NCBI GenBank assembly: GCA_017999915.1
Contig: JAGNKX010000005.1
Coordinates: 124,001-188,000 of the forward strand
DNA: 64,000 bases
Direction of reading: 5' to 3'
DNA from: Spirochaetota bacterium
Lineage (GTDB): Bacteria; Spirochaetota; UBA4802; UBA5550
How positions within the stretch are numbered: position 1 is the first letter of the stretch; each line of letters opens with the position of its first letter. This document shows, in pieces, positions 5,559-21,655 of the stretch. Under the pieces are notes generated by a model that was given only the letters and a program-made list of their open reading frames with translations, had not been told where the DNA came from and did not search any database. The position numbers and the translations under genes are program-made.

Positions 5559-5939
5559 ACCGGCGTTTGACGATCCTTTTTAACTTTTTAGTCAGTATTA
5601 AAATATCTTACAGAATATTGAATACCTTACGCATCAATTTTAAACCCTTGCCCGGCCGCCGAAGGCGGCGGGGTAAAGGTCATTTACTACACGCAATTGA
5701 GTAAAATTTAATATAATTACAAATATTAGTCAAGTAAAACATTTTCATCCTCATATACACTCTATCGAAATTACCTTTTTTAAGTCAACAAAAACTGGCC
5801 GGATACTCAAAAAATTAGCCCCGGACGCGCCGCCAGTCATGCATGGCATCCAGGAATCATCGCCATGAGAAATTATATTTGACAGATAAACCTTCACACA
5901 TTTCATTAAATGTAACAGATAAAAGAGCAGAGAGGGAAC
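5559..5939. promoter_or_regulatory. Divergent promoter region between korDABC and the XRE-cupin regulator
   Basis: This 381-bp gap separates two divergent units and should hold both promoters. It is AT-rich apart from a GC hairpin at 5651-5673 (GCCGCC-GAA-GGCGGC core with flanking CCC/GGG). No clear promoter hexamers or operator repeats could be assigned. Confidence 0.4.
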
Positions 5940-6506
5940 ATGGACAACACCGACGTCAAAGTGGGAGAAAAGATAAAAAAATACCGCGAATCCATGGGCA
6001 TGTCCCTGGCGGACCTTGCCGAGCGCACCGGGTTTTCCCCCGCCTTCATATCCCAGCTCGAGAACCATCTCATCTCGCCGCCCCTTGGGGCGCTGATGAA
6101 AATCGCCCGCTCCATCGGCATTGAAATCGGCATGCTCTTTAACCAGAAGGGCACGGCGCCCTTCACCATCGTCCGCAAGGACGAGCGGGTGCCGACGTCC
6201 CGGGTCGCCTCAAAGGAAGGGGTCCGGTACGGCTATTCCTACGAATCGCTGGCGCCGGAAAAGATAAACCGCAAGATGGAGCCCTTCCTGGTCACCCTGG
6301 AGCCGGTCGCAAAAAAGGGCGTTCCTTACAGCCATGACGGGGAGGAATTTCTCTTTGTCCTTGAGGGGAAAGTGGAGATCCAGCTCGGCGCGCACACGGA
6401 CATCCTCGAGGCGGGGGACAGCATCTACTACGATTCAAAGCTCGACCATCGGGTCGCCTGCGCCGACGACAAGCCGGCGCGGATCATCGCCGTCATCTAC
6501 GCCTGA
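5940..6506 (+). CDS. XRE-family regulator with C-terminal cupin domain
   Basis: A 188-residue transcription factor. An N-terminal HTH (about 8-65) contains the MSLADLAERTGFSPAFISQL recognition segment. The C-terminal cupin (about 110-186) contains HDGEEFLFVLEGKVEI and LEAGDSIYYDS. The start follows GAGGGA. Proteins of this build usually sense a small ligand through the cupin and control catabolic or transport genes. It is divergent from korDABC, so control of that operon is a fair guess. It converges on the transducer gene downstream with only 12 bp between the stops. Confidence 0.88.
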   Translation: MDNTDVKVGEKIKKYRESMGMSLADLAERTGFSPAFISQLENHLISPPLGALMKIARSIGIEIGMLFNQKGTAPFTIVRKDERVPTSRVASKEGVRYGYSYESLAPEKINRKMEPFLVTLEPVAKKGVPYSHDGEEFLFVLEGKVEIQLGAHTDILEAGDSIYYDSKLDHRVACADDKPARIIAVIYA

Positions 6507-6518
6507 GTGACCGGCCCG

Positions 6519-8744
6519 TCATTCATCCTTCCTGCCGGCCATAACGATCTCCTTGAGGCCGTTGGCCTTGTCGGCTATCACGTGGGTGAACTCCTGGAGC
6601 CGGCGGCTCGTTTCAGCCACGTCCTGGGCCATTTCTGAGAGGCGCAGGACCGTCCTGGCGTTTTCCTCCATCGACTTTCTCTGTTCCGTGGTCGAGTTCT
6701 GGATCGTGTGGGACACCTTCTCCAGCGTCCGGGCCTGTTCGATGATATCGATGATGGTGACGCCAAGGTCCCCCATGGCGTCGGACACGGTGTCGACCTT
6801 GCCGGTGATCCCCTTGATCAGGGTGAAGATCGACTCCGCGGACTTACGGGTCTCGGAGAGCATGGTGATGCCGCTGGCTATATCGCCGGTGATCTTCGTC
6901 ACCTGGTCCGAAATGATTTTTGAATTCTCGGTGGTCCGCGCCGCCAGCTTGCCTATCTCGTCGGCGACGACGGCGAAACCCCGGCCATGCTCCCCGGCCC
7001 GCGCGGCCTCAATGGCGGCATTCAGGCTGAGAAGGTTGATCTTGTCGGATATGTCGTCGATGACCGATATGAAGTTGTTGATGGTCTGGCCGCCCTCGTT
7101 GATGATATGCATCATGGACATCATCTTCTCGTAGTTCTCGCCGGTGACGTCGGTGGTCTTTTCTATGTCGCTGATGCCGGAACGGACCGCCTCGCTCATG
7201 GCCTTCACGGACTGCTGGGTCCCCTTGAGGTTATCGACCATCGCCGAGACCTTCGCCCGCTCCTCCTCCTGGCTGAACACCGAATCCACGATCGACTCGA
7301 TGGCCGACGTCAGCTCCTCGAAGGAGGCGGACATCTCCTCGCCCAGGGAAGCCTGCTCCATCGAGGTTTCCTGGAGGCGCTTGCCCATCGCCTCCTCTTC
7401 CCGGCCGACGTTGAGGAGCTCGTTCGAGGCCATCTGCGCCTGTTCCATGATGCTCTCGAGGTTCCGGTTGCGCTCCTCGATGCTATCCTTGAGCTTGTAG
7501 ACCTCGATGTTCATGGTCCTGATCTTGTCCGCGAGCCCCAGGGAGAGGAGCACCATCTGGACGGCGCCGCCGAGGGGAACCCCCTGGTGGGTGATGAACG
7601 ACTCGGGGAGGACGCGCACGGCCTTGAGTATGTAGACGCAGGCGCCCAGTATCAGCGCGCCCCAGGCGATGAGGAAAAACCGGGCCGGCCTGCTCCCCTG
7701 GCGCCAGCGGATGACGCCCGTCACGATAAGGATGATGGCGAGCACGAAGGTTACGCCCATGGCCGGTATGACGATGAAGTAATAGGCGGAGTTCCCGAAG
7801 AAGGGCGTGAGGGCCCCGGTCAGCGCCAGGATCACGGCGCCCAGGACCGGAAAGACGACGATGGCGCGGTGAAGGCGGGGGACATGGATCTTCGTCTCAA
7901 GGAACTTCTGCATGAACAGGGAGCTGGACATCATGACCAGGGAGACGGCAAGGAGAATGCAGTTCATCGACATCCAGCTGAATTTTCGCCATACGAACTC
8001 ATTGCCGATGCCGTTCTCCGAGACGATGTAAAACAGGAACGAGAAAATGAAAAAGACCAGGTACAGGTAGCTCTCGTCGCGGGACATGAAAAAAATAAAG
8101 AAGTTGTAGATCATGATGATGATCATGGCGCCCAGGAGAAGGCCCAGCACGATCTGGTCCTTCCGCTCGCTCTTGATGAACTCGACGGGCGACATGAGGC
8201 GCAGGGGGAACACGATGCCGTCCCCGCTCTGGGCCCGCAGGTAATAATGGCGGGTTTCCCCCGCTTTCAGTCTCTGCTCGAACACAAAGGTGCGTCGCTT
8301 GACCTCTTTACCCGTAAAGGGCATGGCGCGCCCCTGCCGAAGCTCGGTGAAATCGCCTTTCGGGTCCATTGCGTAGAGCGACACATAATCTATGAGGGGA
8401 TGGTTCAGCTCAAGAAACCAGTCATTATCCTTCCCCGAGTCATTCTTTATGGCAAACCTTATCCACCAGGCGGATCTCGTCTGGCCGATGTTGGGGACTT
8501 CCTCTTTGCTGACGGCAAACCTGCCGCCGTAATCCGGCCCCGCAACCTGTTCAATCGTCAATTCCTTGCCCGGGTCTTCCAGCAGGGAGATATGGCGTCC
8601 CGGTATTTCATAGTAGTTACTTTTTGTTGTGATCGTAAAGGCTTCTTCGGCTGAAGCGGGCGCCGCGAGAATCAGCAACAGGGAAAATGCCATCAGCATT
8701 CCGGTGAGGGAAATGATGCTTCGCTTCACAGTACTGCGTCTCAT
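6519..8744 (-). CDS. 7TMR-DISM receptor fused to a methyl-accepting chemotaxis signalling domain
   Basis: A 741-residue membrane signal transducer. It has a cleavable signal peptide (1-32, ending APASAEE), an extracellular 7TMR-DISMED2-like beta domain (about 40-190), seven transmembrane segments (about 195-410), a coiled coil, and a cytoplasmic MCP signalling domain (about 450-735). The hairpin tip reads [20 protein letters not shown], the conserved CheA/CheW contact. 7TMR-DISM domains often sense carbohydrates or other periplasmic ligands, and the MCP output points to chemotaxis or a Che-like pathway. No che genes lie in this window. The start follows AGGGG. Confidence 0.88.
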
Positions 8745-11067: not shown

Positions 11068-12084
11068 TTACGGGGCAAGCTGGGTAACGGCCTTGACCGG
11101 GGTGCCGTCGCTCCAGGTCCCCATGTCAAAGGAAAGGGTATCGCACCCGTCCAGGGCGGCGTCCAGGGCGGCCCAGAACACGCGGTAATCGAAGGTGTCC
11201 ACCTCGCCGTCGCCTCCCAGCATGTCCATGGCCCAGCTTGGCATCCACCCGTCGTCGCAGATGGGGGCCATATGATCGGCCTTCAGGGCCCTGGCGCCGT
11301 GATCATCCGTATTATACTGGTATATTACTTTTGAAGGGGAATTGACCAGGGCGTCACGGGCGTCAAATGCCGTTTCGGGCAGGGCGATGGTATCGTCGGA
11401 GCCGGTCAGTATGATGACCGGGGCCGTGGTCGATTTCGCCTTCTCTCTGAAATCGAGCTCCGTCACCGTGACAAATACATCGACAAAATCCGGAATATTG
11501 GAATAGAGGCAGGGATCGGCCGTAACGATCCTTTTAACGGCCGGGGCAACGGCGTCTCCCTCGTTATCGGACCAGCAGAGGCTGATCAGCCCTCCCAGGG
11601 AATGGCCGAAGAGCACCATGTTGCCCCGGTCGGCCTTTGATCCGATCTTATTCAGGGCGTCGTTGACAGAATCGATGGTCCGGTGCATCATGTTGTTCTG
11701 ATTGTTATCGGTGGCGAGGCCCACCAATCCACCCCTGTTAATCTGCGGGAACAGGACGATATACCCCTGCCTGCACAGGTGCTCGATATGGGCCATGTAG
11801 ATGTCCGGCGCCATCAGCATCATGCCATGGAGATAGATGACCACCGGCGCGGTGGAGCCGTTCTTCAGCCTGGCCGGGACATAGTACCAGCACCAGTAAC
11901 CGCTCCATGGATTATACCAGGCTCCCACCCTTCCCTCTGTATAGCTGCTGCATATGTAATTTTCCGCCGAGCCATAGCCGGAGGATGCCTGCCCCGGGGC
12001 GGTAATCCCGGCGGCATTGATGGAATCTGAATGCAGCAGAACTATAAGCGCCAATAATCCAAACCAGAGTAAATATTTCTTCAT
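11068..12084 (-). CDS. Secreted alpha/beta-hydrolase (lipase/esterase-like)
   Basis: A 338-residue exported hydrolase. A signal peptide spans about 1-25. The nucleophile elbow is GHSLGG with Ser162, the oxyanion region is HGMMLMAPDIY (about 87-97), and an acid residue is expected in TGSDDT. The catalytic His is probably in DHGARALKADHMAP. The core resembles chlorophyllase- or PET-hydrolase-like enzymes acting on esters. The N-terminal mature part is rich in Trp, Tyr and Cys (YNPWSGYWCWYY). The start follows GGGAGG. An inverted repeat at 12163-12174 suggests repressor control. Confidence 0.85.
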   Translation of the reverse strand: MKKYLLWFGLLALIVLLHSDSINAAGITAPGQASSGYGSAENYICSSYTEGRVGAWYNPWSGYWCWYYVPARLKNGSTAPVVIYLHGMMLMAPDIYMAHIEHLCRQGYIVLFPQINRGGLVGLATDNNQNNMMHRTIDSVNDALNKIGSKADRGNMVLFGHSLGGLISLCWSDNEGDAVAPAVKRIVTADPCLYSNIPDFVDVFVTVTELDFREKAKSTTAPVIILTGSDDTIALPETAFDARDALVNSPSKVIYQYNTDDHGARALKADHMAPICDDGWMPSWAMDMLGGDGEVDTFDYRVFWAALDAALDGCDTLSFDMGTWSDGTPVKAVTQLAP

Positions 12085-12162
12085 TTTAAATCCTCCCGAT
12101 CAATTTTTATCGGCCGATAACTATCCGCGCCACTCCGTATCCTGAAAATATTCTTTTTATAT

Positions 12163-12174
12163 GACCGTCCGGTC
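12163..12174. promoter_or_regulatory. TetR-operator-like inverted repeat upstream of the hydrolase gene
   Basis: GACCG-TC-CGGTC is a perfect inverted repeat about 80 bp upstream of the hydrolase start. The sequence resembles operators of AcrR/TetR-type repressors and matches in part the GACCGTTTGGT upstream of the TetR gene at 31 kb. Binding is inferred only. Confidence 0.35.
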
Positions 12175-12290
12175 GGTTTAATACGTTCATTGATATCATA
12201 CTCCCGAATACCAATGCCAATCAATATTTCAGATTCTGTAAATTTGACGGGGAAAATCAAGAGTCATTTAAAGAGGAGAGCTGCTGTCGA

Positions 12291-13862
12291 TTAGCCCATG
12301 GTCAATTCCGCCCGGTACTCGGTGGGTGTCTTGCCGCTGCAGCTCTTGAAGGCCCGGTTAAAGGTCGAGAGGCTGTCAAAGCCCGTTGCCAGGGCGACAT
12401 CGATGATCTTTACATGGCCCTGCTTTAAAAGCTCCATCGCCTCGCGGATCCTGAGCTCGTTGATGTAGTCATTGATCTTTTTCCCGGTGAACTCCTTGAA
12501 CTGGCTGCTGAAATAGTTGGGGTTCATGCCGACGGCCGCGGCCAGGCCCTCGCGGGAAATATCTGACCGGTAATTCTCGTTGATGAACGAAAGGATGCTC
12601 TTTAATTTTTCCCCGGTGGAATCGGTCACGACCCTCCGCCTGGCCTGATCGGCCTTCGGCTCCCGGACCTGGAGCTGATCGTAGAGGACCTTGAGGCCGA
12701 TCATCCTCCTCTGGTATTCCCTGGAGCCCAGGACCGCGAAGCCCAGTATCACGAAGGGCGAGACATAGGTCACGGTCAGGAAGGAATACCTGCTCCCGGA
12801 GAGGTATAATATCACCTCAAGGATTCCCCCGGCGGAGAGGAGCGACACCAGCGCCAGTATCGCGACGAGCTTGAACCGGTCGGGCCGCGCCCTGTTGATC
12901 CTCAGGGTCATGTAGATGGCATAGGGAATGAAAAGGACGATAACGGCCAGGCAATAGGCCGGGTTCAGAAAAAAATTGAGAACGAAATAATTCAGCACAA
13001 AGACCGAACCGGACAGTATCAGCACTCCCCCGTGGATGATCCAGGAATATTCATACAGCTCAGCGCGGTACAGGGACTGTATGATTAGCAGGAACAGGAC
13101 GGCAAAAAACGGGATCGCCATCGTCAGCATCGGCGAGATCATATCCATTGCCACTATTTTATAGGGGGAAAAGAGGGTGATGATATAGGCGGCGTTGAGG
13201 AGCTGCACGAGAATCTCGTAGAGAAAAAGCCTGTCGAAGCCATAGAAAAACGTCACGGCAGCCATGAGGAGGATGCTCCCCGCCAGGAGCAGCAGTATGC
13301 CGATGGGAAGCTGGTTGAACACCAGGTCATAGAAATTCTTCAACCTGCGGTATTCGACCTTCGGTTGGATATAGACTCCGTCCGGGAGTCCGCCGTATTC
13401 GTATCCGAAAACGCCCAGGTACAGGAATAATTCGTTCCTGCCTTTTTTGAGAAGGCCCCGTGGCATCATGAAGCTTTCCGGATAATGAAGATTGGCTATC
13501 TCCGCGGGTGTTTTAATATCGATCAGGTAATTATTGATATAAATCGTATAGGTATAATTAATCCTTCCAAGGGTGATACCGTAATACCTGGCGGGATCAT
13601 CCTCGATGATGAACTCCCCCCTGAGCCAGCAGTATTGGAAGGACCGCTTCGGCTTATAGGGAAGCTGGAATTTTAAGGGCATCCCGATGGATTGCCACCG
13701 GTCGCTTTCACGGGCCGCCTCAAGGGACGGGTCCTGGCTGAAAAGCGCTCTCCACTCCGTCACGGCTATCGACTCCGGAATGGCGGGGAAAGCATGAACA
13801 ATGGACGGTGAAAAAAGAATTATAAGCGCGGCGACTGGGAAAAGATATTTCATAGGACGCAC
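12291..13862 (-). CDS. Membrane-embedded AraC-family regulator: extracellular beta domain, 7 TM, HTH
   Basis: A 523-residue one-component receptor. It has a signal peptide (1-24), an extracellular beta-sandwich region (about 30-175) resembling 7TMR-DISM sensor or sugar-binding domains, about seven transmembrane helices (about 185-385), a short linker, and a C-terminal AraC double HTH (about 415-520) with GMNPNYFSSQFKEFTGKK and ATGFDSLSTFNRAFK. An extracellular signal should therefore be transmitted directly to DNA by a membrane-tethered factor. It lies 8 bp after the CoA-transferase/GNAT gene and is probably co-transcribed with it. The start is the GTG at 13862 or the ATG 9 nt later; neither has a good ribosome site. 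Confidence 0.85.
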   Translation of the reverse strand: MRPMKYLFPVAALIILFSPSIVHAFPAIPESIAVTEWRALFSQDPSLEAARESDRWQSIGMPLKFQLPYKPKRSFQYCWLRGEFIIEDDPARYYGITLGRINYTYTIYINNYLIDIKTPAEIANLHYPESFMMPRGLLKKGRNELFLYLGVFGYEYGGLPDGVYIQPKVEYRRLKNFYDLVFNQLPIGILLLLAGSILLMAAVTFFYGFDRLFLYEILVQLLNAAYIITLFSPYKIVAMDMISPMLTMAIPFFAVLFLLIIQSLYRAELYEYSWIIHGGVLILSGSVFVLNYFVLNFFLNPAYCLAVIVLFIPYAIYMTLRINRARPDRFKLVAILALVSLLSAGGILEVILYLSGSRYSFLTVTYVSPFVILGFAVLGSREYQRRMIGLKVLYDQLQVREPKADQARRRVVTDSTGEKLKSILSFINENYRSDISREGLAAAVGMNPNYFSSQFKEFTGKKINDYINELRIREAMELLKQGHVKIIDVALATGFDSLSTFNRAFKSCSGKTPTEYRAELTMG

Positions 13863-13870
13863 ATTATTCT

Positions 13871-15769
13871 CTACTCCGAGTCGCTGAAGCGCAGCACCAG
13901 CTCGAAAACGCCGTCATCCAGCTTCTTTTCGATATCGGGGAACATTTTCTCGAACACGTGGAGCATGGGACGGTTCTCCGCCAGCACCTCCGCCGTGAAC
14001 CCGAGGAGACCCTCGCGCTTCGCCAGGAGTATCAGGTACCCCAGGAGCTCCGACCCGATCCCGCGGTTGTGCATGTCGTCGCGGACGGCGAAGGCCACCT
14101 CCGCGGTGTGGCTCTTCTCGTCCTTGATCATCTGGCCCATGCCGGCGGCGATGTCCTTGCCGCCCTCCTCGACGAAGGCCAGGATGACCAGCTCCCTGGT
14201 GTAATCGATCACCACGAATTCCTGCCGCCGCTCGTGGGGCATGTCAAGGCGCGACGACATGAACCGACGCTGGAAACTCTGGTCCGAAAGGGAATAGAAC
14301 AGGTCCTTGATGATGGTCTCGTCGTTGATGTTCACGGGCCGCATCTTCAGCGCCGTGCCTGACCTGGTCGTCCGGAACGTGGCAAGGTGCTCCGGGTATT
14401 CCCCGCGCTTGCCCGGGATAAAGGCCTGGTCCTTGTAAATGAGGTTCTGCTTCTTCGCCTCGTCGATCAGCCAGGGCCTGAACTTCGGGTGGGCGATGGC
14501 GATGAGGTCCATGGCCCGCTCGCGGATGTTCTTGCCGTGGATGTAGGCGATGCCGTACTCGGTTACCACGTAATTGATGTCGCCGCGGTTCAGGGTCACG
14601 CCGGTGCCCGGATCGAGGAAGGGGACGATGCGCGAGACCTCGCCGCCCCGCGCCGTGGACTGGAGCACCAGGATGGTCTTCCCGCCCGGCGACAGGATCG
14701 CGCCGCGCATGAAATCGGCGCTCCCGCCGATACCGCTGAAGAACTGGTTTCCGATGGACTCCGCCGTGGCCTGCCCCGTGAGGTCGATCTGGAGGGCCGC
14801 GTTGATGGCCGTCATGTTGACGTTCTGCGCTATCACCAGGGGATTGTTGGTGTAGCTGATCCGCTTGAACTCGATGAACGGGTTGTCGTCGATGTATTCG
14901 TAGGTTTCCTTCACGCCCATGCAGAAGGCCGCCATGGTCTTGCCGCGGTCGGTGGTCTTTCTCGAATTGTCCACCACTCCTCTCTTAAGAAGGTCCATCA
15001 TGGGATGGGTGAAAAGCTCGCTGTGGACGCCCAGGTTGTTTTTTTCCACAAGGCTGGACATGATGGCGCTGGGCATGCTCCCGTATCCCACCTGGATCGT
15101 ATCGCCGTCATTGACGATGCTGGCGACGTAGCGGCCAATGGTGCGGGCGATCTCGTCGGGCACCTCCGGATTGTACTCCAGCAGCGGCTCATCCTGCATC
15201 ACGATGAAGCCGACATCCTTGATGCTGATGAAGGTATCGCCGTGAACACGGGGCATGCGAGGATTCATCTGGGCTATGACCAGCTTGGCGTTCTCGATGG
15301 CGTCCATGCAGATATCGACGCTGATGCCCAGGCTCACGTACCCGTTCTGGTCCGGGAGCGAGGTCTGGATAAGGGCCACGTCGATGGGGATCATCTTGTT
15401 GCGGAAGAGCTGGGGGATCCGCGAAAGGAAAATCGGGGTGTAATCAGCCAGTCCCGTGTTGACGGAGTCGCGGGTGTTATCGCCCACGAAAAAGGAATTG
15501 TGCCTGAAATTGGCCCCGAACTTCTGGTCCGAATAGGGCGCGACGCCGAGGGTCCATACCTGCATGAGCTCCGCGTCGACGATAGCCTTGGGGTGCGACT
15601 CGGCATACTTGACCAGGGAATGCACCAGGTACTGCGGCTCTCCGCAGGCCGTGCTGATGAACAGCCGGTCCCCCCGGTGGACATGGGAAAAGATCGTTTC
15701 CTCGGCTTCGAATTTCTCCGGATACCGCTCCTTCCACATCTGGAAGTAATCGCCTCGCCGTCTGTCCAT
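13871..15769 (-). CDS. Acetyl-CoA hydrolase/CoA-transferase fused to a GNAT acetyltransferase
   Basis: A 632-residue fusion. Residues about 1-440 form the two-lobed class I CoA-transferase/acetyl-CoA hydrolase fold (Cat1/4-hydroxybutyrate CoA-transferase type), with IQVGYGSMPSAIM, GIGGSADFMRGA, and VVTEYGIAYIHGKNIRERA near the C-terminal lobe. Residues about 470-630 form a GNAT domain with AFAVRDDMHNRGIGSELL, the acetyl-CoA binding loop. The CoA-transferase part should move CoA between acids; the GNAT part may acetylate a protein, possibly tying acyl-CoA status to lysine acetylation. The start follows AAGGA. Confidence 0.88.
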   Translation of the reverse strand: MDRRRGDYFQMWKERYPEKFEAEETIFSHVHRGDRLFISTACGEPQYLVHSLVKYAESHPKAIVDAELMQVWTLGVAPYSDQKFGANFRHNSFFVGDNTRDSVNTGLADYTPIFLSRIPQLFRNKMIPIDVALIQTSLPDQNGYVSLGISVDICMDAIENAKLVIAQMNPRMPRVHGDTFISIKDVGFIVMQDEPLLEYNPEVPDEIARTIGRYVASIVNDGDTIQVGYGSMPSAIMSSLVEKNNLGVHSELFTHPMMDLLKRGVVDNSRKTTDRGKTMAAFCMGVKETYEYIDDNPFIEFKRISYTNNPLVIAQNVNMTAINAALQIDLTGQATAESIGNQFFSGIGGSADFMRGAILSPGGKTILVLQSTARGGEVSRIVPFLDPGTGVTLNRGDINYVVTEYGIAYIHGKNIRERAMDLIAIAHPKFRPWLIDEAKKQNLIYKDQAFIPGKRGEYPEHLATFRTTRSGTALKMRPVNINDETIIKDLFYSLSDQSFQRRFMSSRLDMPHERRQEFVVIDYTRELVILAFVEEGGKDIAAGMGQMIKDEKSHTAEVAFAVRDDMHNRGIGSELLGYLILLAKREGLLGFTAEVLAENRPMLHVFEKMFPDIEKKLDDGVFELVLRFSDSE

Positions 15770-17347: not shown

Positions 17348-17470
17348 CCACTGGATTACAACCTGGCAGACGCTGAAAAACAATCATTATTATCACTGGC
17401 ATTTCACACTCAGACAAAGATAGTTCAAAAAAGAGTTGCGCGACCGCAGTATTCGTGATTACGCTTGACC

Positions 17471-20400
17471 ATGCCCAAAACACTTGTTGTCGTAAACCGT
17501 TTCAACGGCTTTCAGGCGACTATTACCTCCATGGGAGCGACATTAGGGCTTCCCGTGAGTGAGTATATCGGTGTAAAGGGACTGGCTGCCGATCTGAACA
17601 GCAACGCCCTCCCGCCTGAGAATGTGGCCCTCCTGGTAATGACCGGTTTTCCGGAACAGCATGATCCGGAAAAATACCGGTTAACAATGAAGTTCATCAA
17701 TCAACTCCGGAACAAGCCAAAATACTCTGACATACCGGTTTTATTCTTGTCCAATCGGAATGACGATAACCTTGCTGCGGCATGTACCGGATGCGGGGCC
17801 ACGTACCTGTCCCTCCCGGCCAAAAGGAGTGAAATAGTGGCCTGCGTCAGGGGATTATGCCGGGGGTCAGAGCAAAATAATGACTCCGGACCGATAACTA
17901 TCGGTGAAAATGACCTGGAATCGGGGTCAGAGCAATCGGAAAGCCAGGCACCGATAACTATCGGCGAGAAAAAAACAACCCTCGAACCGATAACTATCGG
18001 TCCCGAAGCCCTAAAACCGGGGTCAGAGCAAGCATTAGAATCGTCACCGATAACTATCGAGCATAAAACAGACCCTTCCCGACCGATAACTATCGGCCCC
18101 ACCCCCCCAGTACCGGGGTCAGAGCAGCCTAAAAAGCAGTCCGCCGAGTCCGAGCGCCGCCTGGCCACGGTGATGTTCGCCGATATCTCCGGATTCACCG
18201 CCATGAGCGAAAAGATGGACCCGGAGCAGGTGACCGGGATCATGAACGGCGTCTTCCGGGAGATGGAAGATGTCATCAAGGCCCATGGCGGCACCATTGA
18301 CAAGTTCATCGGCGACTGCGTGATGGTCCTCTTCGGTGTTCCCAGGGCCCTTGAAAACGCCCCCCTCATGGCGGTAAATACAGCCATCGAAATGAGGAAC
18401 ACTCTGTATCGCTTTAATAAAGTAAACAACCTGGCCATACCTCTCGACATCCATATCGGCATGAACACCGGCCCGGTCATTGCCGGCCAGGTCGGGGGCA
18501 AAGACCGCACTGATTTCACCGTCATGGGAGATACGGTGAATCTCGCTTCTCGCATAGAGGGAGCGTCCGAGAAAGGTCAGATACTGATGGGTCCGGAGAC
18601 CTACCGTGCAACCCGGGATGACTTTGAATACAGGGCTCTGCCCCCTGTTTCGCTCAAGGGGAAATCCGAACCGGTGCCGACCTTTGAATTGTTATCGGTC
18701 ATGGAAAAAACGCGCCACACAAGAGGGGGTCAGAGACCTGCACAAACCCGGGGGTCAGAGCAAAAATCGAAAACCGGTCCCGACCGGATGATCTACTCCG
18801 AGCTGGTGGGCCGCGACGAGGAGATGAACGACCTCCGCTTCCAGGTAATGAAGCTCATCAAGGGCGAAGGCGGCATCGTCACCATCGTAGGCGAGGCAGG
18901 CATCGGCAAGTCGCGACTGATGGCGGAGCTCAAAGCCGATCCGGCCATGAAGCAGGTGACACTGCTGGAAGGACGTGCTGTTTCCATGGGTCGCAGCCTT
19001 TCCTTCCACCCCATCATCGACCTTCTGAAAAGCTGGGCCGGAATAGCCGAGGACGATGGCGAGACAGTTCAATTCACGAAGCTTGAAAAAGCCATACGAT
19101 CAATCCACCCCGACGAGGCGGAGGAGATCATTCCTTTTGCCGGAACCCTCATGGGCATGAAGCTCTCGGGGAAACACGCGGAGCGGGTGAAGGGGATCGA
19201 GGGCGAAGCCATGGAGAAACTCATTTTCAAGAATATACGGGAGCTTCTCATCAAGGGTTCAACATTAAGGCCAATGGTTGTATACATTGAGGATTTCCAC
19301 TGGGCCGATACCAGTTCCATTGAGCTCCTTAGCGCCCTTTTTAAGCTTGTCGATAACTATCGCATCCTCTATATCCTCGTATTCCGGCCCAACTACGTAG
19401 ATACCAGCGACCGTATCCTCACAACTCTCGCGTCCGATTTCCCTGACCGGTACATGCCAATCGTTATCGAGCCCCTTACGGAGCTGGAAACCCGCGCACT
19501 CATAGGCAACTTGATGAACATCAGGGGGCTTCCGCGCCAGATTGAGGAGCAGATCAAGGAACGTGCCGGAGGGAATCCATTCTTTGTCGAGGAGGTGGTG
19601 CGCTCCTTCATCGACGAGGGAGCGGTGATCAGGAAAGGTGACACCTTCGAGGTGACGGCGAGAATCCACAACGTCACGGTGCCCCTCACTATTAACGAGG
19701 TATTAATGGGACGCATCGACCGGCTCGACGAGGAGACGAAAATCCTGGTTAAGACAGCGTCGGTCATCGGCCGTAACTTTTTCCACAAGATAATTACCGA
19801 AGTTGCTCAAAACGTGTCTGATATCGACCGGAGGCTTTCCTATCTTGAGGATATTCAGCTCATCCGTAAACGGAAACGCCTGGACGAGATAGAGTATCTC
19901 TTCAAGCACGCCCTGGCCCAAGAGGCGGCTTACGAATCAATACTGATACAGAAGCGAAAGGAACTGCACCTGTATGTTGCGCATGCAATAGAGAGCGTGT
20001 TCACGGAGCGACTCCATGAGTTTTACGGTATGCTGGCTTACCATTATAGCAATGGCGACAACCCGGACAAGGCCGAAGAATACATGCTCAAAGCCGGCGA
20101 AGAGGCGATGAAGGCGTCAGCAAGCAGTGAGGCATTGGGCTACTATTCAAGGGCGCTTGAACTCTATCGAAATAAATATAAAAACAAATCCGATCCTGAA
20201 AAAATCGCAATGATAGAAAAGAATATTGCCCTTGCATATTTCTACCGATCAGACTGGAATGAGTCACTTAAATATTTTCGTCCCGCCCTTGAATTTTACT
20301 GGGGGAAATTTCCTCGCAGTCGCTTTGGCTCCGCCACGAAAACAGTTAACTGTATTGCCCATCACCTAATTAGTCTTTACATGCCTTTGGTCAAATGGAA

Positions 20401-21655
20401 ACGCGTTCCTTCGGAACACGATGTTGACAACATTCGTCTTTTCCATAAAATGCTCTATGCGGTTATGCTAACACAGCCCTGGCAATTCTTTATTAATACA
20501 TATTATTTCTGGAAATACTTCTCCCAATTTAATTTCAGGCTATTTGAATTTGGTGTTGGGATTCTTGCTACGAATAGTGTGCTTTTTTCTTATACGGGGA
20601 TTTCATTTTCAGTAAGCAAAATGAGTCTTAAGCTCGCCGAAAAAAATATTAATCCTGACAATACCATCAGTATTTTATATTATACATTGAGTTCAACCAT
20701 TTTTAATGTATTATCGGGAAATTGGATAGATTTACCTGCCACTGATGATTTGGTTAAAAATGGAAATGATATCGGTGAATATATCAATACTGCAAGCTTG
20801 TTATTTTTTGAATCATTGTTAAATGCTGAACGTGGTAATTTTAGTTGTTGTGATTCAAAAATAACAAAATTAGAAGAAATATATCTTCAATATTCTTTAA
20901 ATTCCGCAAAAGATGATCTGTTCTGGATCAAATCAAAATTACTACAAATAAAGAATAAAACAGGTGATTGTGCGATCATTAATGAAGGAATAAATCATAT
21001 TCGAAAACATGGATCCGAAATGAATTTTCTTATATCACTTTATTCAGCACAATCATATACATCTTTATTGAATGGGAAATTGCTCGACGCACAACGCCAT
21101 ATTACAGAAGCAGATTCAATTTATAATGAATATGAAACGGTTCCAATTATAACATCTGATTATTTCATTACTAAACTCATTATTGCACAGCAATTAATGG
21201 AGCATTATAATATTGTTGGTGATATTGATAGCTTTCGCAAGGAGAAACAGATGGCATCGAGATTTCTGAAAATAATGATCCGGCATGCACGCAAAAATGC
21301 TTTATGCAGAACGAGGGCTTATAGAGTTATTGGAACTCATTTCTGGCTGCTATGCAAAAAGAAGAAATCCATTCGCTGGTGGAAGAAAACTATTTACGAA
21401 GGCGAACGCCTCGGCGCCCGTCCCGAACTCTCCCGCACCTACTTCGAGGTCGGCAAGCGCCTCCTTGAAAAGCCCCTCACGGAAAAACACGCCCGCCTCC
21501 AGCCGAAGGCCCGCGTTCTGGCAAAAAAAATCATCGGCCTCACCCCGGAGGAATGCCTCGAAAGGGCCAGGACCATGTTCCAAGAAATGGACCTCCAGTG
21601 GGACCTGGAACAACTGGAGACATTGCTTAACAATATAAAAATGCAAAACCATTAA
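17471..21655 (+). CDS. Class III adenylate/guanylate cyclase with AAA ATPase and TPR-like tail
   Basis: About 1394 residues. The order is: a receiver-like domain (about 1-125), a repeat-rich linker (130-220), a class III cyclase domain (about 228-400) with metal Asp238 in FADISGF and Asp282 in FIGDCVMVLFG, a second short linker, an AAA/STAND-type ATPase (Walker A GEAGIGKS at 474-481, Walker B YIEDFHW about 603-610), and helical TPR-like repeats. KDRTDFTVMGDTVNLASR is the substrate/transition-state region of cyclases. No clear ribosome site is seen; ATG 17471 is preferred over TTG 17465. From about 20200 to 21370 base composition becomes markedly AT-rich and then returns to the local GC-rich pattern. 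Confidence 0.88.
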   Translation: MPKTLVVVNRFNGFQATITSMGATLGLPVSEYIGVKGLAADLNSNALPPENVALLVMTGFPEQHDPEKYRLTMKFINQLRNKPKYSDIPVLFLSNRNDDNLAAACTGCGATYLSLPAKRSEIVACVRGLCRGSEQNNDSGPITIGENDLESGSEQSESQAPITIGEKKTTLEPITIGPEALKPGSEQALESSPITIEHKTDPSRPITIGPTPPVPGSEQPKKQSAESERRLATVMFADISGFTAMSEKMDPEQVTGIMNGVFREMEDVIKAHGGTIDKFIGDCVMVLFGVPRALENAPLMAVNTAIEMRNTLYRFNKVNNLAIPLDIHIGMNTGPVIAGQVGGKDRTDFTVMGDTVNLASRIEGASEKGQILMGPETYRATRDDFEYRALPPVSLKGKSEPVPTFELLSVMEKTRHTRGGQRPAQTRGSEQKSKTGPDRMIYSELVGRDEEMNDLRFQVMKLIKGEGGIVTIVGEAGIGKSRLMAELKADPAMKQVTLLEGRAVSMGRSLSFHPIIDLLKSWAGIAEDDGETVQFTKLEKAIRSIHPDEAEEIIPFAGTLMGMKLSGKHAERVKGIEGEAMEKLIFKNIRELLIKGSTLRPMVVYIEDFHWADTSSIELLSALFKLVDNYRILYILVFRPNYVDTSDRILTTLASDFPDRYMPIVIEPLTELETRALIGNLMNIRGLPRQIEEQIKERAGGNPFFVEEVVRSFIDEGAVIRKGDTFEVTARIHNVTVPLTINEVLMGRIDRLDEETKILVKTASVIGRNFFHKIITEVAQNVSDIDRRLSYLEDIQLIRKRKRLDEIEYLFKHALAQEAAYESILIQKRKELHLYVAHAIESVFTERLHEFYGMLAYHYSNGDNPDKAEEYMLKAGEEAMKASASSEALGYYSRALELYRNKYKNKSDPEKIAMIEKNIALAYFYRSDWNESLKYFRPALEFYWGKFPRSRFGSATKTVNCIAHHLISLYMPLVKWKRVPSEHDVDNIRLFHKMLYAVMLTQPWQFFINTYYFWKYFSQFNFRLFEFGVGILATNSVLFSYTGISFSVSKMSLKLAEKNINPDNTISILYYTLSSTIFNVLSGNWIDLPATDDLVKNGNDIGEYINTASLLFFESLLNAERGNFSCCDSKITKLEEIYLQYSLNSAKDDLFWIKSKLLQIKNKTGDCAIINEGINHIRKHGSEMNFLISLYSAQSYTSLLNGKLLDAQRHITEADSIYNEYETVPIITSDYFITKLIIAQQLMEHYNIVGDIDSFRKEKQMASRFLKIMIRHARKNALCRTRAYRVIGTHFWLLCKKKKSIRWWKKTIYEGERLGARPELSRTYFEVGKRLLEKPLTEKHARLQPKARVLAKKIIGLTPEECLERARTMFQEMDLQWDLEQLETLLNNIKMQNH
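17863..18126 (+). repeat. 96-bp higher-order repeat in the cyclase linker (GGGGTCAGAGCA and CCGATAACTATCGG)
   Basis: GGGGTCAGAGCA starts at 17863, 17923, 18019 and 18115. The 14-nt palindrome CCGATA-AC-TATCGG starts at 17891, 17951, 17987, 18047 (last three bases altered) and 18083. The complete unit is 96 bp: motif at 0, palindromes at +28 and +64; the first unit lacks 36 bp. DNA between the motifs has diverged. The motifs encode GSEQ and PITIG in one frame. The element is coding yet strongly conserved at nucleotide level. Confidence 0.9.
18726..18763 (+). repeat. GGGGTCAGAG pair in the second cyclase linker
   Basis: GGGGTCAGAG occurs at 18726 and again at 18751, between the cyclase and ATPase domains. 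The second encodes GSEQ as in the first linker. The first is read in another frame, giving GGQR, which shows that the DNA motif and not the peptide is what recurs. Confidence 0.75.

Follow-up and report, generated by a model that had tools for sequence, protein, structure and literature searches.

How a DNA-binding domain anchored by seven membrane helices could regulate genes is the question raised by the receptor gene at 12291-13862 (minus strand) of the window, i.e. the whole 64,000-nucleotide stretch of spirochaetal DNA analysed here. The original prediction described its product as an extracellular beta domain and seven helices joined to a C-terminal AraC helix-turn-helix (HTH) domain without kinase or cyclase, and reasoned that such a protein must either act from the membrane or be released from it. 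Taken as a whole, the data are best explained by a transmembrane one-component regulator that would sense a periplasmic ligand, bind DNA in situ and act on the hydrolase gene lying downstream, a reading to which we assign a probability of roughly 0.7.

Domain layout and membrane topology

The open reading frame starts with GTG and encodes 523 amino acids without an internal stop. Hydropathy analysis revealed one N-terminal hydrophobic segment (residues 7-25) and exactly seven more at 185-379. An AlphaFold model drawing on an alignment of 17 homologues reached a mean pLDDT of 82. In it, a signal helix (residues 7-22) precedes a beta domain (35-167), after which come seven long helices (168-398), a linker predicted as disordered (about 399-413) and, at the C-terminus, an AraC domain made up entirely of helices (414-522). 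The gene was accordingly divided, all on the minus strand, into a signal peptide or N-terminal hydrophobic helix (residues 1-25; 13788-13862), recognised by hydropathy and the model; an extracytoplasmic jelly-roll with a short helix leading into TM1 (residues 26-178; 13329-13787), from profile and fold matches; seven transmembrane helices (residues 179-385; 12708-13328), from hydropathy, the model and loop charges; and, beyond the TM7 extension and linker described below, the AraC-type DNA-binding domain (residues 414-519; 12306-12623).

This last domain, of about 100 residues with two HTH motifs as in the AraC/XylS family and the sole part of the receptor recognised by Pfam, was matched by the Pfam models HTH_18 (residues 440-518; E 9.8e-22, 77.5 bits, cut-off 33.6) and HTH_AraC (E 1.5e-14, 54.1 bits, cut-off 26.6) and by solved AraC-type structures (Z 13-14.4). 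Kinase, cyclase, GGDEF and MCP domains were all absent from the Pfam scan of the receptor. Both the predicted layout and the lack of kinase and cyclase were borne out by these analyses.

Averaged over 17 homologues, the inside loops carry charges of +1.5 (L1-2), +0.5 (L3-4) and +3.1 (L5-6), with +1.2 on the C-terminal helix, and the outside loops 0.0, -0.2 and +0.2. This distribution fits an N-out/C-in orientation and therefore a cytoplasmic HTH; a position outside the cytoplasm, which would have undermined the original prediction, was not predicted. With a recognised DNA-binding domain and at least one TM region, the protein has the sequence features of a transmembrane transcription regulator (TTR), and the best reading of its architecture is a one-component regulator of this kind acting in situ.

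Conservation of the fusion

The simplest objection would be that a sequence or assembly error, or gene decay, has placed part of a receptor and an AraC gene in one frame. When 148 related genomes were searched and the window's own copies counted in, 17 close full-length members (the focal protein included) with the same domain order were recovered from 10 genomes of one order, and their adjoining genes were tabulated, as had been proposed. Two more distant members were found in a 'Spirochaetales' MAG (L140) and in a MAG labelled Proteobacteria (L139); beyond Spirochaetota the distribution was sampled through HTH patterns only, with the full alignment as query. The L139 copy (5890-7494, plus strand) may reflect transfer or a mislabelled bin. 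It should be added that one genome carries two core family members in tandem (L065:7579-10776, minus strand).

Sensor and HTH distances within the family are correlated (Mantel r 0.67, a value reached in 0 of 2000 permutations), with mean identities of 27% for the sensors and 56% for the HTHs; judged by these values, the sensors of the family diverge fast, and the output to which they are attached is conserved. Relative to the orthologue in genome G003 (75% identical), dN/dS was 0.16 overall (0.15 in the ectodomain, 0.17 in the 7TM part and 0.04 in the HTH), and both halves of the receptor evolve together and are under purifying selection. Since the layout recurs in 10 genomes, the distances correlate and dN/dS is low, the gene is no chimera of two genes. 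The same order in independent assemblies, purifying selection on every domain and the lack of stops leave the probability of error or decay negligible, and no support for it was found in these data.

Ectodomain and kinship to 7TMR-DISM receptors

The profile of the ectodomain matched the jelly-roll of sialate O-acetylesterases (7kmm, E 2.5e-11; also 9ega and 9h4u) and, more weakly, beta-galactosidases. Folded alone (pLDDT 91), it resembled N-terminal domains of GH2 enzymes, with beta-glucuronidase at Z 13.7 over 134 residues (rmsd 2.8). Given this homology, a glycan-type sensor is likely, and one would naturally suppose the ligand to be a sugar or one of its derivatives. The invariant residues (W37, W56, G95, N110, G141 and N143) look structural, so that the ligand is not readable from sequence. 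In 11 of the 17 family members, but not in the focal receptor, the signal peptide has a lipobox-like cysteine close to its end.

The original prediction had considered the protein a 7TMR-DISM receptor. Its seven helices do follow an extracytoplasmic N-terminus and lead to a cytoplasmic C-terminus, as in that superfamily. Direct Pfam assignment of the 7TM part failed, with no match of the receptor to 7TMR-DISM_7TM (PF07695) and the gene absent among the 27 PF07695 matches in its own genome, and profile comparison was used instead. Nor did DISMED2 (PF07696) match the receptor, the ectodomain being of sialate-esterase/GH2 type.

When the phylum was searched with the sensor profile (A3), 124 of 393 genomes proved to encode related sensors, many of them within frames of 650-900 aa. 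Seven such proteins (set A6) were scanned: the output was a SpoIIE phosphatase in six and GGDEF in one, and three exceeded the PF07695 cut-off over the helices. Alignment of the A3 and A6 profiles with hhalign gave 99.8% probability (E 2.2e-29) over profile columns 24-401, i.e. from the ectodomain through TM7, and via these proteins the sensor is homologous to ones that match PF07695. Direct comparison of A3 with profile A4 gave only 79.7% (E 1.5e-5). One 695-aa frame in the same genome matched both A3, on the ectodomain side, and PF07695, and scanning of 60 AraC-fused proteins at E 0.01 found PF07695 in 17 and DISMED2 in four.

The Pfam model missed the receptor, yet the A3-A6 link is strong, and by these profiles the focal sensor is an outlying, divergent relative of the 7TMR-DISM superfamily, outside its Pfam definitions. 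The original assignment is thus supported through profile comparison, but not by PF07695, DISMED2 or the type of ectodomain. Similarity of the helix bundle to rhodopsins and GPCRs (Z about 15) was set aside, as such scores may reflect mere helical-bundle arrangement. Elsewhere in the genome, a short segment (L213, about 1725-1979; G000:C14:32224-32478) matches the final sensor helices, contains two in-frame stops and adjoins a PAS-SpoIIE gene; it is a probable remnant of a decayed paralogue.

Proposed signal transfer and action at the membrane

The cytoplasmic juxtamembrane extension of TM7 (residues 380-398; 12669-12725, minus strand), delimited from the family alignment and the model, carries an LYxxL motif in which Y394 and L397 are invariant and L393 nearly so, across 17 homologues whose helices otherwise differ widely. 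In enzyme-linked relatives the segment aligned to it continues into the helix preceding the output. This extension is likely the coupling, or transmission, helix and is the best candidate for that role. It is followed by a linker (residues 399-413; 12624-12668, minus strand) that the model represents as flexible, with pLDDT under 50 at 401-412.

Being predicted as disordered, the linker would be accessible to proteases, and signal-triggered cleavage, by regulated intramembrane or juxtamembrane proteolysis, might free the AraC domain as a soluble regulator; regulated intramembrane proteolysis is known for membrane regulators such as TcpP (PMC11323476). We consider such release unlikely. The linker is variable in both length and sequence among homologues, some of which have few residues between helix and HTH, and the 17-homologue alignment gave no sign of a conserved cleavage or release site. 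Furthermore, no dedicated protease gene recurs among the family-locus neighbours listed, a seven-helix anchor would be unusual, and proteolysis of TcpP switches that regulator off, not on (PMC11323476).

We therefore favour DNA binding by the membrane-embedded receptor. The jelly-roll, perhaps together with the helix bundle, would sense a ligand in the periplasm, probably a glycan or a derivative of a sugar, and the signal would pass along the LYxxL helix, changing how the AraC domains are arranged in the dimer or how accessible they are. That such sensors transmit a signal inward is indicated by the SpoIIE and GGDEF enzyme outputs of their homologues. The AraC domains would then bind DNA without the receptor leaving the membrane, capturing the chromosome as it diffuses. 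CadC regulates from the membrane through such diffusion and capture (PMC6320335, PMC7888679). The choice originally posed between action in the membrane and release was logically right; the CadC route works without proteolysis (PMC6320335, PMC7888679), and the receptor showed no release site.

Alternatively, the receptor might act mainly through mixed dimers, formed via the HTH or the helix bundle, with related membrane AraC or 7TM proteins that it would modulate. Related membrane AraC proteins are indeed numerous in the genome, which also encodes about 27 7TMR-DISM proteins, and tandem members occur in one genome (L065). However, most family loci hold a single copy, and conservation is strongest in the HTH, where the AraC pattern is complete, as expected for direct DNA binding, which makes a role chiefly in mixed dimers quite improbable.

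Genomic neighbourhood and candidate target

Under the in situ reading, the most likely target would be the gene just downstream, a secreted alpha/beta-hydrolase (11068-12084, minus strand), with the 206-bp intergenic region (12085-12290, minus strand), partly conserved with the orthologous locus, as candidate promoter. The hydrolase adjoins the receptor in both orthologue-carrying genomes, with a gap of 206 bp in the window and 276 bp in G003, and the two loci are also syntenic for the following Fe-S, DUF6989 and MCP genes, a synteny based on the sole orthologue pair. At 14 of 16 family loci the receptor gene and the gene that follows it are co-oriented, 30-381 bp apart. Downstream of paralogues are genes for PD40-OmpA proteins (three), proteins with an HxxxDG-like motif (three), another lipase-like hydrolase and an AMP-dependent ligase. 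This pattern, drawn from few loci, fits local regulation of envelope or acyl-metabolism genes. As the downstream neighbours differ among paralogues, naming a target amounts to a guess, and on gene order the adjacent hydrolase gene is probably the one. The HxxxDG-like-motif proteins form a family without Pfam match (L068:9037-10623, L069:4952-6403 and L071:8283-9890).

Eight bp upstream of the receptor gene lies a gene for an acetyl-CoA hydrolase/CoA-transferase with a C-terminal GNAT acetyltransferase domain (13871-15769, minus strand). The case for an operon with it is weak, a radical-SAM/B12 gene intervening in the orthologous locus. Dispersed CCGATAA/TTATCGG palindromes near the hydrolase promoter, which footprinting had brought up, were considered as a specific operator and rejected, because CCGATANNTATCGG is repeated genome-wide, at 130 exact sites that partly form tandem arrays of about 22 bp. 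At 17891-18096 of the window, several ACCGATAACTATCGG palindromes alternate with GGGGTCAGAGCA, in frame inside the ORF 17465-21655 (cyclase-STAND), where they encode a linker of repeated PITIG and GSEQ. By its distribution, the palindromic repeat looks like a REP-type element that also sits inside a coding region.

Predicted membrane AraC proteins

The original prediction had treated a DNA-binding output on such a receptor as an oddity. This does not hold: about 22 of the 27 AraC-domain proteins in the window's genome (G000) have at least four hydrophobic segments and four have none (approximate counts, from simple hydropathy), many relatives are built alike, TTRs are common in Spirochaetota (PMC10269533), and a 7TMR-DISM-ChiS fusion has been published (PMC8092284). 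On predicted hydrophobic segments, membrane AraC proteins apparently predominate in this genome. Many of its polytopic AraC proteins (e.g. L016, L018, L021 and L222) have 340-425 aa and lack a large ectodomain; by length and layout they constitute a second, simpler class.

In a tree of HTH domains (90 sequences, 108 columns; unrooted, with many forks unresolved), the focal HTH grouped with those of the core family, and this group fell within a larger set of mostly spirochaetal sequences. Members of that larger set carry their AraC domain on DISMED2-7TM, DISMED2-7TM-GAF, HisKA_7TM-GAF and protein kinase-STAND-GAF modules. Proteins of about 1550 aa combine protein kinase, AAA_16/STAND ATPase, TPR and GAF domains, as scanned in L101, with the same AraC clade (L101:3672-8342, minus strand; L076:8410-18521, plus strand), and two proteins of this size stand in tandem in G005. 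One AraC clade may serve as a plug-in output in this spirochaete order, placed directly on membrane sensors of several unrelated kinds (7TM of the sialate-esterase type, DISMED2-7TM alone or followed by GAF, HisKA_7TM-GAF) and on the kinase-STAND-GAF scaffold in place of kinases, phosphatases or cyclases; most AraC regulation would then proceed from the membrane and chromosome-membrane contact would be routine. We give this broader proposal slightly less than even odds.

DISMED2-7TM is also fused directly to AraC in L111 and L152 (Ca. Marispirochaeta associata), and single chains of DISMED2-7TM-HisKA-HATPase-REC-AraC occur in SAR324 (L161:3280-6366, plus strand) and in an uncultured spirochaete (L153:153-3170, plus strand). 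By domain order, the latter are possible intermediates between kinase-coupled and direct AraC output. L111 and L152 fall in a supported HTH group with L161, which retains kinase and receiver; a direct fusion may hence derive from a kinase-containing chain that lost this module, or the kinase-containing chain from a direct fusion, the unrooted tree giving no direction.

Comparison with known systems

Among membrane transcription regulators, most of those studied cross the membrane only once. ToxR and CadC carry an N-terminal winged HTH and one TM helix, whereas the receptor has a C-terminal AraC HTH and seven TM helices and is not of the ToxR/CadC type. With transmembrane regulators, including ToxR, CadC and TcpP (PMC10269533), it shares the union of DNA-binding and membrane parts in a single chain. 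The census in that work counted 50,302 TTRs in 9,673 genomes, with enrichment in Spirochaetota and Leptospirae and an average of three or more TM regions in Leptospirae (PMC10269533).

A seven-helix receptor family with a short link to AraC and many diverged copies represents a natural system for studying how a receptor is coupled to DNA binding, and lets one ask whether a polytopic receptor can find a chromosomal site. Moreover, homologous sensors with SpoIIE or GGDEF outputs permit swaps that would address whether one receptor movement drives different outputs.

In common with RetS, LadS, NicD and RgsP (PF07695/PF07696), the receptor begins with a signal peptide and combines a beta-rich periplasmic sensor and seven helices with a cytoplasmic output; it differs from them in matching neither PF07695 nor DISMED2, in its sialate-esterase/GH2 ectodomain and in its DNA-binding rather than enzymatic output. 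Bacteroides hybrid two-component systems with an AraC C-terminus likewise unite a membrane receptor and a DNA-binding output in one chain, but signal via a histidine kinase and receiver, neither of which appeared in the Pfam scan of the receptor. The DISMED2-7TM-AraC and DISMED2-7TM-HisKA-HATPase-REC-AraC proteins (L152, L161, L153) are bona fide Pfam 7TMR-DISM with AraC output; the focal ectodomain differs from theirs and its HTH lies in another branch of the AraC tree. The published 7TMR-DISM-ChiS protein, compared by its description, also has a sensor and a C-terminal DNA-binding domain in one chain, but is proteobacterial with a cryptic HTH (PMC8092284, Fig. 5), whereas the present receptor is spirochaetal and AraC-type. 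Among open-licence papers, none describing a 7TMR-DISM fusion with AraC was found.

Transmembrane regulators are thus known to be widespread and a 7TMR-DISM-ChiS fusion is on record, so that the receptor is less exceptional than first thought. What is new is that a sialate-esterase-type ectodomain, a divergent 7TM part and an AraC output are combined in a family conserved within a single spirochaete order, and that the AraC proteins of this genome seem to be mostly membrane-bound.
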